A DNA stretch of 27,118 nucleotides from a virus. The translations under genes and the position numbers were made by a program. The DNA is taken from IMG/VR virus record IMGVR_UViG_3300044678_001758, positions 1 through 27,118 of that record. The stretch is one strand, 5' to 3'. Under the pieces are notes generated by a model. The model saw only the letters and a list, made by a program, of their open reading frames with translations, ran no database searches and was not told where the DNA came from. Positions 13,647-22,064 of the stretch are shown here, in pieces. Every line of letters begins with the position of its first letter. Positions within the stretch are counted from its first letter, which is position 1.

Positions 13647-13883
13647 GTGATCGCTGCGGCTCACTGGCGTCGAGGCGGACCTGACGGGCGCGAACCCATC
13701 GCGGCTGCCGGTGAGGTTGTGTCGCTCGCCCAGCACTACACGCCGCAGCAGCAGTATTGGGGCAAGGTGACAAGCTCGCGGCCCGCGCCGCTGACAGCCT
13801 CGCATGTGCAACTGGTCGCGTTCCGCCTCGGCTGCTCTCTCGATTCCGCCCGCCGGGCAATCCTCATGGGGCTCGTGAAATGA
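13647..13883 (+). CDS. small hypothetical protein
   Basis: A 78-residue protein with a GTG start and a good ribosome site (cggagg, 6 bases upstream). The C-terminal half ('SHVQLVAFRLGCSLDSARRA') looks like a short helical domain. No family is recognised. Its last codons overlap the start of the holin-like gene (ATGA), which ties it to the lysis module. The 51-base gap upstream holds a T-rich tract and no clear promoter. Confidence 0.45.
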   Translation: MIAAAHWRRGGPDGREPIAAAGEVVSLAQHYTPQQQYWGKVTSSRPAPLTASHVQLVAFRLGCSLDSARRAILMGLVK

Positions 13884-14257
13884 TCTCCTCCGCTCCGCTG
13901 CAAGCCGCCTACGACCTCGTGTCGCTCGCCGAGAAGGTTCGGGCGTTCGTCGCCACCGCGAAGGTCAAAGCCGCTGGCGGGATCACGCTCGCGGAGTTTG
14001 GCGAGCTCGCCGTCGCCCTCATGCGGGTGGCGATTGAAGCGGCCGACGCGATCCCGGTCGACGGGGCCGAGCGAAAGCAGTTCGTGCTCAACGCTATCGC
14101 TCTCCTGTTCGACACCGTTGCAGACCGGGCGATCCCCGCGCTCGCGTGGCCCGTCTGGATCATCCTGAAACCGGCCGCCCGCCAACTGCTGCTATTGGTC
14201 GCCAGCGGTGCCATCGAATCGCTCTTGCCCCTTGTGAGGAAAGCCCACGACGCATGA
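13880..14257 (+). CDS. putative holin-like membrane protein
   Basis: A 125-residue protein. An amphipathic N-terminal half (residues 35-82, 'GITLAEFGELAVALMRVAIE') is followed by a hydrophobic stretch at residues 84-115 ('IPALAWPVWIILKP' and 'QLLLLVASGAIESLL') and a short charged tail. Size, hydrophobic C-terminal part and position just before other membrane proteins and a membrane-anchored peptidase fit a holin or holin-like pore protein. Holins share little sequence, so the call is by context. It overlaps its neighbours on both sides by ATGA junctions. Confidence 0.4.
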   Translation: MISSAPLQAAYDLVSLAEKVRAFVATAKVKAAGGITLAEFGELAVALMRVAIEAADAIPVDGAERKQFVLNAIALLFDTVADRAIPALAWPVWIILKPAARQLLLLVASGAIESLLPLVRKAHDA

Positions 14258-14505
14258 TCTACGTCCTCCTGTTGGGCGGCGCTGCCGCTCTCCTCGTTGG
14301 CCCGATGCTCGCCCGCCGGGCTGCCCCGTCGCTCGGCCCAGAGCCGGCACCACCGCCGCACCTCGCCCCGACCTACCAGTCGGCAATCGCTGACCTCGCC
14401 CACGTCCGCTTGCGTCTGCTCCAGACGGAGAGCCTGGCGGAAGCGGAGAAGAAGGCGATCGACACGCTGACGCTCGCCCTGGTCGCCGGGAGCGACAAGC
14501 CATGA
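14254..14505 (+). CDS. small single-span membrane protein
   Basis: An 83-residue protein with a hydrophobic N-terminal helix (residues 2-20), a Pro/Ala-rich linker (residues 24-40) and a C-terminal amphipathic helix ('AHVRLRLLQTESLAEAEKKA'). That layout, with an N-terminal anchor plus an extracytoplasmic coiled helix, is typical of small phage lysis accessories such as spanin-type proteins, but no family is recognised. The start overlaps the previous stop. Confidence 0.5.
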   Translation: MIYVLLLGGAAALLVGPMLARRAAPSLGPEPAPPPHLAPTYQSAIADLAHVRLRLLQTESLAEAEKKAIDTLTLALVAGSDKP

Positions 14506-14954
14506 CAGACCGCGCCCGCTACACGCTCGCCTCGGCCCTGGTGCTCGGCTGCCTGCTTGCGTGGGCGTTGGAGAGCAGGCCCGCCCCGGCACCGGCCCCC
14601 GGCGGCGCTCTCGTCTTGCGTGGCAAGTTCATCGGCCCGACCGCTGCGGCCGACGCCGCGACGCTCGCAGCCTTTGCCGACGAGCTCGCCATTGAGATCG
14701 AGCACGACGCCGCCCAGGGCGAGCCGTTCTTCAAGACCGGCACGCAGTACGACGAGCTTCGCACGCGGGCGAGGATCCTGCGTTGCCGTGGCGAAAGCAT
14801 CGGCGAGCGGCAGCCAAAGGTCAGGGATGCCATCGAGGCGTTTCTCGACGGGGCAGTCGGCAAGAGCGGTGGCCCGGTGAGCAAGTCGCAGCGTGAGGCG
14901 TGGGCGGCAGCGTATCGCGAGATCGGAAGGGCTGCCGGTGAAGCGACCCGCTGA
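14502..14954 (+). CDS. membrane-anchored or exported protein of lysis region
   Basis: A 150-residue protein with an N-terminal hydrophobic segment (residues 7-24), a Pro/Ala linker ('RPAPAPAPGG') and a soluble helical domain with two charged halves. It is likely anchored in the inner membrane with the domain outside. No enzyme motif is seen. It overlaps the genes on both sides: ATGA with 14254-14505, and 17 bases with the cysteine peptidase. It may be a partner of that peptidase. Confidence 0.5.
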   Translation: MTDRARYTLASALVLGCLLAWALESRPAPAPAPGGALVLRGKFIGPTAAADAATLAAFADELAIEIEHDAAQGEPFFKTGTQYDELRTRARILRCRGESIGERQPKVRDAIEAFLDGAVGKSGGPVSKSQREAWAAAYREIGRAAGEATR

Positions 14955-16047
14955 CGAGATTCGAGCCTGGCAGTTTGTCGGCGCGGCGGCGTTGCTATTC
15001 ATCGCCGTCTACCTCGCCGTTTCGCAGCGGCACACGCCGTCAGGGTCGCAGTTTGGATACGCCCCAAACCCCGAGGGCGTAAAAGAGTTTCTGGCCGAGC
15101 TCGACCAGCCGCTCTTTCGTGACGCTGGGGCCGAGACGATCGCCAAGGCGAAGGGCGTCGACACGTTCCTCTATCGCTCTGCGTACAAGGCTCACGCATC
15201 CCGCTACGGCAAGCCTTGGGTTTGCGGCCGGCAGGGAATCGGCGACTGCGTTTCGTGGGCCTGGGGCGAGCACGCCGTCTGGATCGCTCAATGCGTCGAC
15301 TGGGAGACGGGGCGGCTCGCCGATCCTCCGCTCCGCGTGAGTTCCGAAAGTTGTTACGGCGGCTCGCGCGTCGAGGCCCGCAATAAGCCCGAGGGCGGTG
15401 GCGGGTGGAGCGATGGCTCCTACGGCGGCGCGGCTGCCCGCTGGTTTCGCGACTGGGGCGTCATCTATCGCCAGCCCTACGACGGCGTCGACCTGACGGA
15501 CTATTCCGCCGACCGGGCGAAGCAGTGGGGCAACTGGGGCAACGGCGGCCAGGGCGACAAGGGCAAGCTCGACGCGGTCGCAAAGAAGCATCCGACGAAA
15601 CATGTCGCCCTCGTCCGCAACTTCGACGAGGCGGCTGCCGCTATCGAGGCGGGGTTCCCGGTCGCCGTCTGTTCGATGGTCGGCTTCGAGAATGTCAGAG
15701 GACCGGATGCGTTCGCCGCCGCGCGTGGGCAATGGGCTCATGCGATGTGCTTCCACTCGGTGCGCTACGCGAAGAACGGCTCGCCCCGCGACGGGCTGTT
15801 GTGTCAAAACTCATGGGGGCCGTCGTGGATCAGTGGCCCGAAGTGGCCCGCCGATATGCCCGAAGGGAGTTTCTGGGTCGATCGCCAGACGGTCGACCGG
15901 ATGCTTGCCGGGCTCGATAGTTTCGCCGTGGGCTCTGTCGCCGGTTTCGGCTGGCGCGACCTCCATCACGGCAACTGGCTCATGCCCGCCGTCAACACGC
16001 TCACTCGCAAGCCCAACCCATTCCTCGATTACCAACTCGCCCCATGA
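14938..16047 (+). CDS. membrane-anchored papain-like (C1) cysteine peptidase
   Basis: A 369-residue protein from a GTG with 'ggaagg' upstream. A hydrophobic helix at residues 11-29 should anchor it with the rest outside the cytoplasm. The catalytic set of the papain family is visible in order: oxyanion Gln99 and nucleophile Cys104 in 'GRQGIGDCVSWAWGE', His268 in 'GQWAHAMCFHSVRY', and Asn291 in 'CQNSWGPSW', as in papain's NSWG motif. Extra cysteines could form disulfides. It sits in the middle of a run of membrane proteins where an endolysin would be expected, and no muramidase, amidase or transglycosylase is seen. I infer a proteolytic lysis or envelope-opening enzyme. A role in modifying the host surface is the alternative. 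Confidence 0.8.
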   Translation: MKRPADEIRAWQFVGAAALLFIAVYLAVSQRHTPSGSQFGYAPNPEGVKEFLAELDQPLFRDAGAETIAKAKGVDTFLYRSAYKAHASRYGKPWVCGRQGIGDCVSWAWGEHAVWIAQCVDWETGRLADPPLRVSSESCYGGSRVEARNKPEGGGGWSDGSYGGAAARWFRDWGVIYRQPYDGVDLTDYSADRAKQWGNWGNGGQGDKGKLDAVAKKHPTKHVALVRNFDEAAAAIEAGFPVAVCSMVGFENVRGPDAFAAARGQWAHAMCFHSVRYAKNGSPRDGLLCQNSWGPSWISGPKWPADMPEGSFWVDRQTVDRMLAGLDSFAVGSVAGFGWRDLHHGNWLMPAVNTLTRKPNPFLDYQLAP

Positions 16048-16307
16048 TCCAACTCACCAACAAGCAACTCGCCATTGTCTGCCTCGTCTGCATGTCTGCC
16101 GGATGGTGGCTCTCATCGTCGCCCTCATCGCCGGTCAACCCGACGCCCGCGAACGACCGCCCCGTGCTCCGGTGGATCGCCAAGGCGGCGAAGAATCTTC
16201 TCTGGATCGCCCTCATCGCGGAGCAGCCGCCGAAGGAATCCCGCCTCGTGCAGCACCAGGTCGGCGAGGACGGGCATCCCGTGATCGACCACGCCAGGAG
16301 TTTCTAG
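16044..16307 (+). CDS. small membrane protein
   Basis: An 87-residue protein with one hydrophobic helix at residues 8-24 ('LAIVCLVCMSAGWWLSS'), a Ser/Pro linker and a second moderately hydrophobic helix around residues 41-58 ('VLRWIAKAAKNLLWIALIAE'). The end is polar. The ATGA overlap with the cysteine peptidase gene suggests coupled expression. It may be a spanin-like or regulatory membrane subunit. No family is recognised. Confidence 0.5.
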   Translation: MIQLTNKQLAIVCLVCMSAGWWLSSSPSSPVNPTPANDRPVLRWIAKAAKNLLWIALIAEQPPKESRLVQHQVGEDGHPVIDHARSF

Positions 16308-16309
16308 CC

Positions 16310-16627
16310 ATGTGGGAATGGATCCTGGCGACGCTCGCCGCCCTGTCGGCTGACCCCGTGTCGGCAAGCCTCGAACACCCGAGGGCTGCCGCTGCGGTCG
16401 CCGCTGCACGGGCCAGCATGGTCGCCGGGGATGCCGCCCCCACGCCGACGCCCGCCGAGTGCGTCTGCGGCCGGACGTGCGTTAACGGCGTCTGGAAGCC
16501 GGACGGGCGAGTGGAGCAGCGATGCACCTGCACCTGTGAGCGGTGCAAGAAAAAGCCCGGCTGCCCAGACGGAAAGTGCCGCGTGCCGGGAGCGTCGCCC
16601 GCGTCTGGTTCACCGGCCATGCCTTGA
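16310..16627 (+). CDS. exported nine-cysteine protein
   Basis: A 105-residue protein from ATG 16310, two bases after the previous stop. The first 19 residues look like a short signal peptide ending in 'DPVSA'. An Ala-rich helix follows, and then a compact cysteine domain with nine cysteines (C51, C53, C57, C72, C74, C76, C79, C85, C90), lysines and prolines. The pattern could be a disulfide knot or a metal-binding domain outside the cytoplasm. It is the last gene of the membrane/exported run. It matches no family I know. Confidence 0.5.
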   Translation: MWEWILATLAALSADPVSASLEHPRAAAAVAAARASMVAGDAAPTPTPAECVCGRTCVNGVWKPDGRVEQRCTCTCERCKKKPGCPDGKCRVPGASPASGSPAMP

Positions 16628-17576: not shown

Positions 17577-18491
17577 TCATTCACCTTGACGATTCTGGTC
17601 AAGGTCTAGCTTCGGCAACGCGCTCAGGCTGATCTCCTCCTCTGGGCAGATCGTCGGGTCGACGTAGATCTTCTGGAGGTTCGGGTCTGCGTGATCGAGC
17701 AGGTGCGTTGCGGCTGCCCGTCCGCCGGCTAGGGCTGCATAAGACGCCGCCGTCCGCCGGAAGCCGTGGAAGCCTCTGTATTTCACGCCTGCGAGGCGAC
17801 AGAGCAGACGCAGGCTCGCCCATTGGCTGCGGCTCTTGCGGTCCCAGGCCCACACCAGAGCGTCAGGCGGGCCTTTCTCACGCCGCAGCATCTCGGCAAG
17901 GTCTTCCGTGATCTCACGCTCGATGTCGCGCGTGCTGCCTTTGCGAGTCTCCCCAAGGAATACGACGCGCCGCCGCTCCAGATCGACCTGCCCCCAGCGG
18001 AGCGATGTCAGGGCGGTGAACCGCTCGCCCGTGCAGTACGCGGTGTATATCAGCGTCGGCCACCACCAGGCGGCACGCTTTCCGCCGACCGATCCTTGCC
18101 GACGCTTCGCCCGCACGATGAGTTTCGCCACGTCCTCCGCCGTGTAGGCCCGCCCTGTAGGCAGCCTCGCCGGAACGCGGATCTTCGGGAGCTCGGGGAA
18201 GTCAGCCGCCCAACGCTTGCGGGCGGCGAGGTTCCACGCCGCCTGTAGCATCACCTTGTCCTTCTGGACACTCGCGGCCGATGGCACCCGCCCCTTGTAG
18301 CCAGGCGTCGTGGCCCGCCAGCGCAGGTATCTCGCGATCACGAGGTCGTCGAGGTCCGCAAGCGTCGGCTCGTGGCCGAGGAAGTTCGTCAGCCTGTCGC
18401 CTAATTGGTTGTACAGCGACGCCGTGTTGCCCTTGAGATTCCGAAGCGTGACGTACCGCTCGAACAGTTCCTTCAAAGTCATCGTTTCCAT
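17577..18491 (-). CDS. int: tyrosine recombinase (phage integrase)
   Basis: A 304-residue protein. I choose the ATG at 18491 over an in-frame start 29 codons upstream because 'gggag' lies 7 bases before it and the probable promoter overlaps the upstream part. Residues 1-110 form the SAM-like core-binding domain. The catalytic domain has the complete set R157 ('TGERF'), K184 ('RKGSTRD'), H242-R245 ('HGFRRT'), H267 ('LLDHADP') and nucleophile Y276 ('KIYVDP'). It should integrate and excise the element at an att site. It is divergent from the excisionase-like gene and is the only minus-strand gene in the window. Confidence 0.92.
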   Translation of the reverse strand: METMTLKELFERYVTLRNLKGNTASLYNQLGDRLTNFLGHEPTLADLDDLVIARYLRWRATTPGYKGRVPSAASVQKDKVMLQAAWNLAARKRWAADFPELPKIRVPARLPTGRAYTAEDVAKLIVRAKRRQGSVGGKRAAWWWPTLIYTAYCTGERFTALTSLRWGQVDLERRRVVFLGETRKGSTRDIEREITEDLAEMLRREKGPPDALVWAWDRKSRSQWASLRLLCRLAGVKYRGFHGFRRTAASYAALAGGRAAATHLLDHADPNLQKIYVDPTICPEEEISLSALPKLDLDQNRQGE

Positions 18492-18513
18492 GTTGTTTCT
18501 CCCGGTGTGATGG

Positions 18514-18544
18514 CTGTTATACCCACTACTGTACAACAGTCCAA
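18514..18544 (-). promoter_or_regulatory. integrase promoter with overlapping inverted-repeat operator
   Basis: On the minus strand, TTGGAC (18544-18539), a 17-base spacer and TATAAC (18521-18516) form a sigma70-type promoter, 25 bases before the integrase ATG. An inverted repeat, CTGTTATAC, 8 bases, GTACAACAG (18514-18539, one mismatch), covers the whole promoter. This looks like an operator for a dimeric repressor. Confidence 0.65.
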
Positions 18545-18613
18545 CTCCCCTCGCCTCCACTAGACATTTGCCCGACACCCCAACTTTAGGGCCGGGCCGG
18601 GACGGAGTCCAAT

Positions 18614-21236: not shown

Positions 21237-22064
21237 ATGAAAAAGCCAGCCATCATGACATTCGGACGCATCGCCAAGGCGTACCTCGCCGAGCGGATCG
21301 TCTCCAAGCACTACGCCGAGAACGTCGAGCGGATCTCCCTGCGTTGCTGCGAGGTCAGCGTCAAGCGGGTCAACGAATACCTGCGGACGATCTCTTCGGA
21401 GAAGGCCAGCACCACCGTCAGGGCAGAGCGGACGATCCTGCTCACGCTCTACCGCTATGCGTTCGAGACCGGGATGATCGACGAAGCCCCGCGCGGCGTG
21501 ATGAAGATCAAGGCCCGCAAGAGCCCGACGAAGGCTTGGACTGTCGAGCAACTTCGCGGGCTGATTGCCGCCACGAAAGCCCACGACGGCAAGCGGCTCC
21601 GATCCGGTGCCAACCTCGGCAAGTTCCTCCGGTGCTGGGTGCTGCTCGCCTACGAGTGCGGGGCTCGCTTCGGCGACGTGATGTCGTTCACTCGCGAGCA
21701 CCTGGACGGCGACACGCTGTCTTGGACGCAGAGCAAGACCGGCGATCCGTTGGTCCGACCGCTGACGCCAGCCTGCCTGACAGCCATCGACGAAATGCTC
21801 GCCGTGTCGCCAGACGGCCGGATCCTCGGCTGGGTCTGCAAGCGTCGGATGGCAATGCGGCACATGCGGATCCTGCTCGACAGCGTCGGCATGGGCGGGA
21901 GCTCGAAGTGGCTGCGTCGCAGCGGCGCGACCCATTGCGAGATGGAAAAGCCTGGGGCTGGCCGGCTCCACCTGGGCCACCGATCGCCCGCGCTCTTTGA
22001 GCAGGCTTATTGCGACTGGTCACAACTTCGGCAGCGGACGCCGAAGACGCCGGCACTGGTCTAA
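21237..22064 (+). CDS. second tyrosine recombinase
   Basis: A 275-residue protein. I prefer ATG 21237, with 'aagga' upstream; a GTG at 21183 overlapping the previous stop is possible. Residues 1-95 form a core-binding domain. The catalytic domain has R144 ('CGARFGDV'), K167 ('SKTGDPL'), K224-R227 (the HxxR box with Lys instead of His, 'KWLRRSGATH'), H248 ('LGHRSP') and Y258 ('FEQAYCD'). The set is complete, so it is probably active. It is only distantly similar to the integrase at 17577. Sitting within an early operon behind RecT, it may resolve replication products or act as an alternative integrase. Confidence 0.88.
   Translation: MKKPAIMTFGRIAKAYLAERIVSKHYAENVERISLRCCEVSVKRVNEYLRTISSEKASTTVRAERTILLTLYRYAFETGMIDEAPRGVMKIKARKSPTKAWTVEQLRGLIAATKAHDGKRLRSGANLGKFLRCWVLLAYECGARFGDVMSFTREHLDGDTLSWTQSKTGDPLVRPLTPACLTAIDEMLAVSPDGRILGWVCKRRMAMRHMRILLDSVGMGGSSKWLRRSGATHCEMEKPGAGRLHLGHRSPALFEQAYCDWSQLRQRTPKTPALV

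Follow-up and report, generated by a model that had tools for sequence, protein, structure and literature searches.

We describe a six-gene module in a viral DNA stretch of 27,118 nucleotides (nt) (IMG/VR record IMGVR_UViG_3300044678_001758, a 27 kb fragment; the whole stretch is called the window), whose fourth gene encodes a membrane-anchored cysteine peptidase predicted to have a papain-type fold with invariant catalytic residues. We propose that the module is the late lysis cassette of tailed phages, many of them temperate, that infect Planctomycetota, and we give this reading a probability of about one half. The lysis role is plausible and unproven; computation supplies the predicted fold, the catalytic residues, the anchor, the linkage of the genes, their position and the lack of a recognised muralytic family in what was scanned.

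An anchored papain-like peptidase

The peptidase (gene 4, 369 amino acids (aa), GTG start) is encoded at 14938..16047 on the + strand. The first-pass annotation of this DNA had pointed to Gln99, Cys104, His268 and Asn291 in papain order and to an N-terminal anchor, and both features extend to the family. Among the proteins aligned after a first peptidase scan of viral contigs, which used the best 80 of 98 related stretches, Gln99 and Cys104 are invariant (81/81) and so are His268 and Asn291 where covered (80/80). A diverse alignment of 53 rows, made of 52 representatives below 85% identity plus the window protein, itself identical to one of these in the part compared, retains Gln99, Cys104, His268, Asn291, Ser292 and Trp293 in 53/53; the NSW motif is likewise complete (53/53) and is followed by Gly in 50/53. 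When the alignment is widened to 67 rows that include distant host-genome relatives, Cys and His are present in 67/67 and Gln and Asn in 66/67. The Gln exception (L403) carries a Gln one or two residues off, at papain-like spacing, and may be a matter of alignment. The relative at L415:8784-9842 also has its oxyanion Gln out of register in the alignment, at a distance from Cys like that of papain. Papain has five residues between Gln and Cys; the window peptidase family has four, and L105 and L109 have five. Three further cysteines (C245, C271 and C289) frequently occur together, not strictly so. A hydrophobic N-terminal segment is found in 30/30 representatives of the first scan, with a 19-residue hydropathy of 1.79-2.75 (2.04 in the window protein).

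The AlphaFold2 (AF2) model of the peptidase has a predicted local distance difference test score (pLDDT) of 78.5, and its best solved match is xylellain (3ois_B; Foldseek E 8e-9; Z 19.1 over 226 residues at 3.0 A), while cathepsins, falcipains and Der p 1 give Z values of about 16-17. Scanned against Pfam with E up to 1, 29 members yielded five unrelated weak families only and Peptidase_C1 in 0/29, and the peptidase of Blastopirellula marina DSM 3645 has no Peptidase_C1 match at E up to 0.01. A search of PDB sequences with the family profile was empty at E up to 1, and a single-sequence search against PDB sequences returned 3u8e as the sole match (E 0.18). Because none of the 29 members matches the Pfam papain family, we term the enzyme papain-like without assigning it to family C1; the earlier suggestion of a C1-family peptidase is thus borne out for the predicted fold and not for the family profile.

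Compared with the clan CA / C1A enzymes (xylellain, cathepsin B, papain), the module peptidase shares the predicted fold, the Gln-Cys-His-Asn order and the NSW motif, but differs in having no Peptidase_C1 match, a four-residue Gln-Cys spacing, a membrane anchor and a phage-borne gene. A similar predicted fold is found in a viral Peptidase_C1 protein of uncultured Caudovirales (A0A6J5TCZ4; E 4.8e-9, 13% identity), and we know of no such module or lysis role for the proteins of that group. SAR (signal-arrest-release) endolysins such as P1 Lyz and phage 21 R are N-terminally anchored lysis enzymes, and the catalytic Cys of P1 Lyz is under redox control; those known to us are glycosidases. The module peptidase resembles them in its N-terminal anchor (30/30), and the Cys-rich or thioredoxin-like product of gene 6 is a possible parallel to the redox control of P1 Lyz, whereas its model matches papain-type enzymes (folds outside the list are not excluded by the search), and we do not file it as a SAR endolysin. 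A papain-family peptidase has a precedent in a phage lysis enzyme, namely the N5 peptidase domain of mycobacteriophage Lysin A, and, in the sections consulted of the paper that describes it (PMC3314691), Lysin A proteins usually comprise three domains, among them one that binds the wall and one that is an amidase or glycosidase. Unlike these, the module peptidase consists of one domain and an anchor, with no further catalytic or wall-binding domain, since the modelled anchor helix (residues 5-31) and peptidase domain (residues 48-335) of the 369 residues leave no room for a second; nor was another domain matched by Pfam in the 29 members. A Lysin A from Mycobacterium phage MOOREtheMARYer is among the Foldseek matches (E 1.8e-4), with a low TM-score of 0.20.

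Module genes and their linkage

Five smaller genes, all on the + strand, surround the peptidase gene. Gene 1 (P0002, 125 aa; 13880..14257) encodes a holin candidate with three moderately hydrophobic stretches; gene 2 (P0003, 83 aa; 14254..14505), the variable slot of the module, a protein with a hydrophobic N-terminal segment and a helix-like tail; and gene 3 (P0004, 150 aa; 14502..14954), the constant partner of the peptidase, an N-terminal helix followed by a helical bundle. Downstream of the peptidase, gene 5 (P0005, 87 aa; 16044..16307) is short with an N-terminal hydrophobic stretch, and the product of gene 6 (P0006, 105 aa; 16310..16627) is Ala-rich at the N-terminus and Cys-rich at the C-terminus. 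Six genes coupled by overlaps with four ATGA junctions had been described; the six open reading frames (ORFs) and the four ATGA sequences (at 13880, 14254, 14502 and 16044) are there, but the one at 13880 links gene 1 to an ORF that precedes it (54 or 78 aa depending on the start), so that the six genes themselves are connected by three ATGA junctions, one 17-nt overlap (14938-14954) in which the GTG start of the peptidase at 14938 falls inside gene 3, and one 2-nt gap between genes 5 and 6. Nonsynonymous divergence (dN) is below synonymous divergence (dS) per site for all six genes in every comparison made (for the peptidase and four relatives, dN 0.00-0.39 and dS 0.07-1.31, the larger dS values being near saturation), and we therefore take the six ORFs as real genes and not chance frames. 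We also regard them as one unit.

That the genes stay together was examined in overlapping scans. In a survey of 90 loci, which counts the copy in the window together with a dozen that are nearly identical to it, P0004 is present in 85, P0005 in 79, P0002 in 78, P0006 in 75 and P0003 in 30; the five loci lacking P0004 are two that begin inside the peptidase, two from Mucilaginibacter and one distant metagenome-assembled genome (MAG). A scan started from P0004 gave 80 loci, 78 of them new, and the peptidase is found in 75/78, the other three ending 148, 0 and 1 nt past P0004. Of 52 loci found with P0002, 50 were new and 41/50 carry the peptidase (in broken pieces in L302), the nine misses having at most 667 nt after P0002. 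A scan with divergent peptidases, using the best 80 of 396 related IMG/VR stretches, found P0004 adjacent in 61/62 new loci, and the sole exception begins inside the peptidase. Here "new" refers to locus identifiers, many of them on contigs already covered and many near-identical, and because the scans overlap in contigs these counts are not independent. The linkage that the first-pass annotation suggested checking is thus confirmed for P0004 and the peptidase, with P0003 as the variable member. In the P0002 and P0004 scans every locus without the peptidase runs out of sequence, and no phage that keeps P0002 or P0004 with a lysozyme in place of the peptidase was found there. A tail gene was also tried as the anchor for this displacement test and was abandoned as too distant from the module, 28/80 loci reaching P0002 and 5 more reaching the peptidase without it.

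The small proteins had been described as a holin-like protein and four membrane-anchored or exported proteins. For gene 1, the best hydropathy windows are 1.54, 1.46 and 1.28, and a window that reaches 1.6 or higher occurs in 41/60 members of its family; no Pfam or PHROG match was found, and the holin identity is unconfirmed. Among the other four, the N-terminal segment is clear in gene 2 (hydropathy 2.15), moderate in genes 3 and 5 (1.57 and 1.46) and weak in gene 6 (1.07), the last falling short of what had been claimed. The AF2 model of the gene 3 product P0004 has a pLDDT of 91.1 and no Foldseek PDB match at E <= 0.001; its best hit by Z (7.2) is a designed helical bundle, which may just reflect a common arrangement, and no function was read from the fold. 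We also dropped the idea that P0004 is a lipoprotein, raised by a VLGC string in the window protein, as that Cys lies outside the invariant and near-invariant columns of the family.

In B. marina (L104:11361-11930) and in the MAG RI_54 (L102) a thioredoxin-like protein (PF13899) replaces gene 6, and a thioredoxin-type motif, as a motif only, stands at the gene 6 position in L331 and L352. These four remained from a WC..C pattern scan that flagged seven ORFs; L330 has the same sequence as L104, and L029 and L351 were dropped as methyltransferase-like by eye. The thioredoxin-type substitution in some loci and the Cys-rich gene 6 elsewhere suggest that the catalytic Cys, or envelope disulfides, may be under redox control. 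Gene calls in L102, L104, L107-L109, L331 and L412-L418 are crude, with starts unsure and genes possibly missed, and the peptidase frame of L413 is uncalled. Read by eye, the most distant planctomycete relative (L109:1231-4480) has a peptidase whose start resembles a signal peptide and, upstream of it, four small proteins that each show a hydrophobic stretch at the N-terminus; given this arrangement, the layout of the module may predate its recognisable sequences.

Hosts, position and the search for another lysis enzyme

Nine peptidase relatives reside in genome contigs, comprising five planctomycete records (L101, L103, L105, L109 and the B. marina DSM 3645 record L104), RI_54 labelled 'bacterium', an Alphaproteobacteria MAG (L106) and two Mucilaginibacter. 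The L106 peptidase is ~70% identical to the window protein, and our guess is that its alphaproteobacterial label reflects misbinning. Terminase, portal and capsid genes follow the B. marina copy, which very probably belongs to a 25,482-bp provirus listed in IMG/VR that has a 100% identical peptidase. A peptidase match occurs in 27/296 genomes of the B. marina order, and of 20 loci from this order (B. marina and apparently some of the MAGs included) 11 have P0004 alongside. Homologues on host chromosomes away from phages, which the first-pass annotation had named as evidence against a phage lysis function, appear to exist: in the two Mucilaginibacter species (L107:10112-11026 and L108:9860-10786) a relative that by reading has no anchor stands alone, apparently on the chromosome, and is preceded by the same genes in both, and L413 and L414 of the B. 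marina order have host-like contexts away from phage genes, by reading of their neighbours. All four are without the module. In the tree, a single 55-row clade (support 97/91) holds the module-bearing rows, and next to it stand Mucilaginibacter and two further proteins from host genomes. The module-less Mucilaginibacter pair, L413 and L414 lie outside the clade, several on long branches, joins of which, the tree program warns, may be false. By eye, L412 and L416 have phage-like contexts. The phage-like region L416:3420-11469 encodes at least six small proteins with a similar N-terminal leader, like a common targeting or packaging tag (by eye).

The window reads tape measure, tail genes, other genes, module and integrase, the last lying directly downstream of the module at 17577..18578 on the - strand (phrog_1, E 7.1e-29); a second integrase-like gene is found at 21237-22064 (+). 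In the B. marina type the module is instead followed by a terminase, and the module is thus found in at least two phage architectures. Lysis genes of phages often lie beside the integrase or, as in lambda, upstream of the terminase. Of the distinct peptidase ORFs, 61 are followed by 4 kb or more of sequence, and within that distance an opposite-strand integrase lies in 20 of them and a same-strand terminase in 5; 61 is a low count, as only the first of identical ORFs was kept and L417 and L418 were lost to shorter copies of the same loci. By analogy, the position would fit the usual lysis places in 25/61 loci with room. Relatives of tail or tape-measure genes occur upstream within 12 kb in 23/207 distinct ORFs, although most of the loci do not extend far enough for a judgement.

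Because the window record is a fragment, we looked for another lysis enzyme in its relatives and not in the window alone. G001 (43.6 kb) has capsid, tail, integrase and terminase families and the module, G003 (43.1 kb) has a terminase at its start and a portal and capsid, and G017 (44.0 kb) opens with early genes (RecT) and also contains terminase, portal, capsid, tail and integrase. As these contigs break at different places, we judge their union to be near-complete, from gene content only. No muralytic Pfam family is among the best 25 of 33 families matched in G001 (60/61 genes; the others at E > 0.0037), the best 25 of 57 in G003 (63/63 genes; the others at E > 1.4e-5) or the best 25 of 31 in G017 (64/65 genes; the others at E > 2.2e-5), nor among all 17 Pfam families of the B. 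marina region (23 genes). PHROG scans of G001 and G003, covering the best 25 of 159 and the best 25 of 164 families, say little. Targeted searches, which covered 11 to 23 records per family with GH19, GH108, M15 and M23 not searched singly, found PF00959 and PF01510 each in 0/11 and 0/12 further records, PF00877 and PF01464 each in 0/11 and CHAP (PF05257) in 0/19, while in the control 3 to 9 of 14 cellular genomes were positive. These results support, and cannot prove, the absence of a recognised muralytic family from the phages that carry the module. The earlier statement that the window has no lysozyme, amidase or transglycosylase motif agrees with these scans, though only 16/42 window genes (6 + 10) were scanned for families, and an endolysin elsewhere in the genome, put forward at the time as the finding that would speak against the idea, appears neither in these best-25 sets, nor in the B. 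marina region, nor in the targeted searches. Among the families that G001 and G017 do contain are those of the DNA polymerase III beta-clamp, RecT and LexA type, and G003 and G017 share an SprT-like family.

At E up to 0.01, tblastn against 50,697 GenBank phage records found no match for P0004 or for the peptidases of the window and of B. marina, and as the portal protein of G017 matched 450 phage records in the same collection, all below 60% identity, these empty results are not a search failure as such. A plasmid search also gave no match. In the literature on planctomycete phage lysis and on papain-type lysis by phages we found nothing naming such a module, the coverage mostly leaving out subscription papers.

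A proposed role in lysis and its alternatives

We propose that the peptidase is exported and held by its N-terminal anchor in the inner membrane, the papain-type domain lying in the periplasm, and that it would be turned on at the end of infection, perhaps after the gene 1 product has disrupted the membrane. The products of gene 3 and of the Cys-rich or thioredoxin-like gene 6 could assist this activation, whereupon the enzyme would cut peptide bonds of the envelope, either in the stem or cross-link peptides of peptidoglycan or in proteins that tie the envelope together. The export, timing, target and activation of the peptidase and the roles of the small proteins are what we infer. A bolder form of this proposal, in which the anchored peptidase, with its helical partner (gene 3) and redox gene 6, is the only envelope cutter and replaces lysozymes and amidases across phage architectures of Planctomycetota, is more tentative, and we think it somewhat likelier to fail than to hold.

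The original idea of a lysis module with a peptidase instead of a muralytic enzyme was built on a host envelope that depends strongly on protein, as proposed for planctomycetes. This premise conflicts with the consulted portion of Jeske et al. 2015 (PMC4432640), in which diaminopimelate was detected in four planctomycetes (B. marina not among them), all four were harmed by lysozyme and lysozyme-sensitive sacculi were obtained from two. As planctomycetes, on that evidence, have lysozyme-sensitive peptidoglycan, the protein-wall rationale is unneeded: the peptidase could cut peptidoglycan peptides, and "instead of a muralytic enzyme" may be a false opposition, with the peptidase itself perhaps the peptidoglycan cutter. 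Of the lysis cassette as first described, the predicted fold, the anchor, the linkage and the lack of a muralytic family in what was scanned carry over, whereas the holin is unconfirmed and the protein-wall premise does not.

Several observations count against lysis. With lysozyme-sensitive peptidoglycan in planctomycetes, an ordinary lysozyme should suffice, and the lack of one calls for an explanation. The holin identity of gene 1 is not clear, given its hydropathy values and the lack of a family match. Relatives without the module occur in 9/20 loci of the B. marina order and in the two Mucilaginibacter, and 36/61 loci with room, two of them Mucilaginibacter, show neither the integrase nor the terminase within 4 kb with the queries used. 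The peptidase gene of L415 (8784-9842) sits between capsid and head-tail connector genes in an HK97-type head operon, an unusual place for lysis, and the module of RI_54 stands at a contig end with neighbours that do not look phage-like.

The main rival is that the module serves lysogenic conversion or superinfection exclusion, an anchored protease in the envelope of the lysogen trimming surface proteins and thereby blocking phages or altering the surface. It would explain why the module lies near an integrase in 20/61 loci with room, why it is kept in apparent prophage remnants (L417, L418) with little else but terminase, by eye, and why relatives of the peptidase live apart from phage genes. 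We nevertheless consider it improbable: the module is opposite in strand to the integrase in 20/20 loci and co-directed with the tail genes in the window, and it would leave these phages without a known lysis enzyme. Accessory phage genes of this kind are usually patchy, whereas no P0002 or P0004 locus with room is without the peptidase. The remnants themselves (L417:7298-11736 and L418:7258-12051) show the module and terminase beside host-like genes.

It is also conceivable that the protease has an accessory, spanin-like task, severing proteins that link the outer membrane to the wall, with the bulk of the work left to an unrecognised wall hydrolase encoded elsewhere. The several small companions with a single hydrophobic N-terminal segment are suggestive of this, an SprT-like metallopeptidase family is present in G003 and G017, and an unknown hydrolase could hide because many genes of these phages match no family; yet no candidate hydrolase is among the matches listed for G001, G003, G017 and the B. 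marina region, and the small B. marina prophage has the module and no known hydrolase in its 23 scanned genes, so that we regard this role as doubtful, and a shade more so than conversion. A virion-assembly protease, or a protein packaged and injected, seems very unlikely to us in the family around the window, which has the N-terminal anchor. The thought is prompted by the L415 gene within its head operon and by L409, L410, L412 and the Mucilaginibacter relatives, which by reading have no anchor. However, a Pfam run on 49 genes of L412, L415 and L416 includes a Peptidase_S78 prohead protease, assigned to L415 by reading, and the capsid protein of G001 matches head-maturation-protease families among the PHROG matches listed.

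Lysis by the anchored peptidase thus remains our preferred reading, and the question is open to a cultured strain because B. marina DSM 3645 carries a prophage copy. As the module is widespread (396 related IMG/VR stretches in one scan; a relative of the peptidase in 27/296 genomes of the B. marina order), it offers a testable answer to how planctomycete cells are opened. If the peptidase cuts peptidoglycan peptides, it would be a new enzyme type for phage lysis; if it cuts proteins, it would reveal what holds the planctomycete envelope together.

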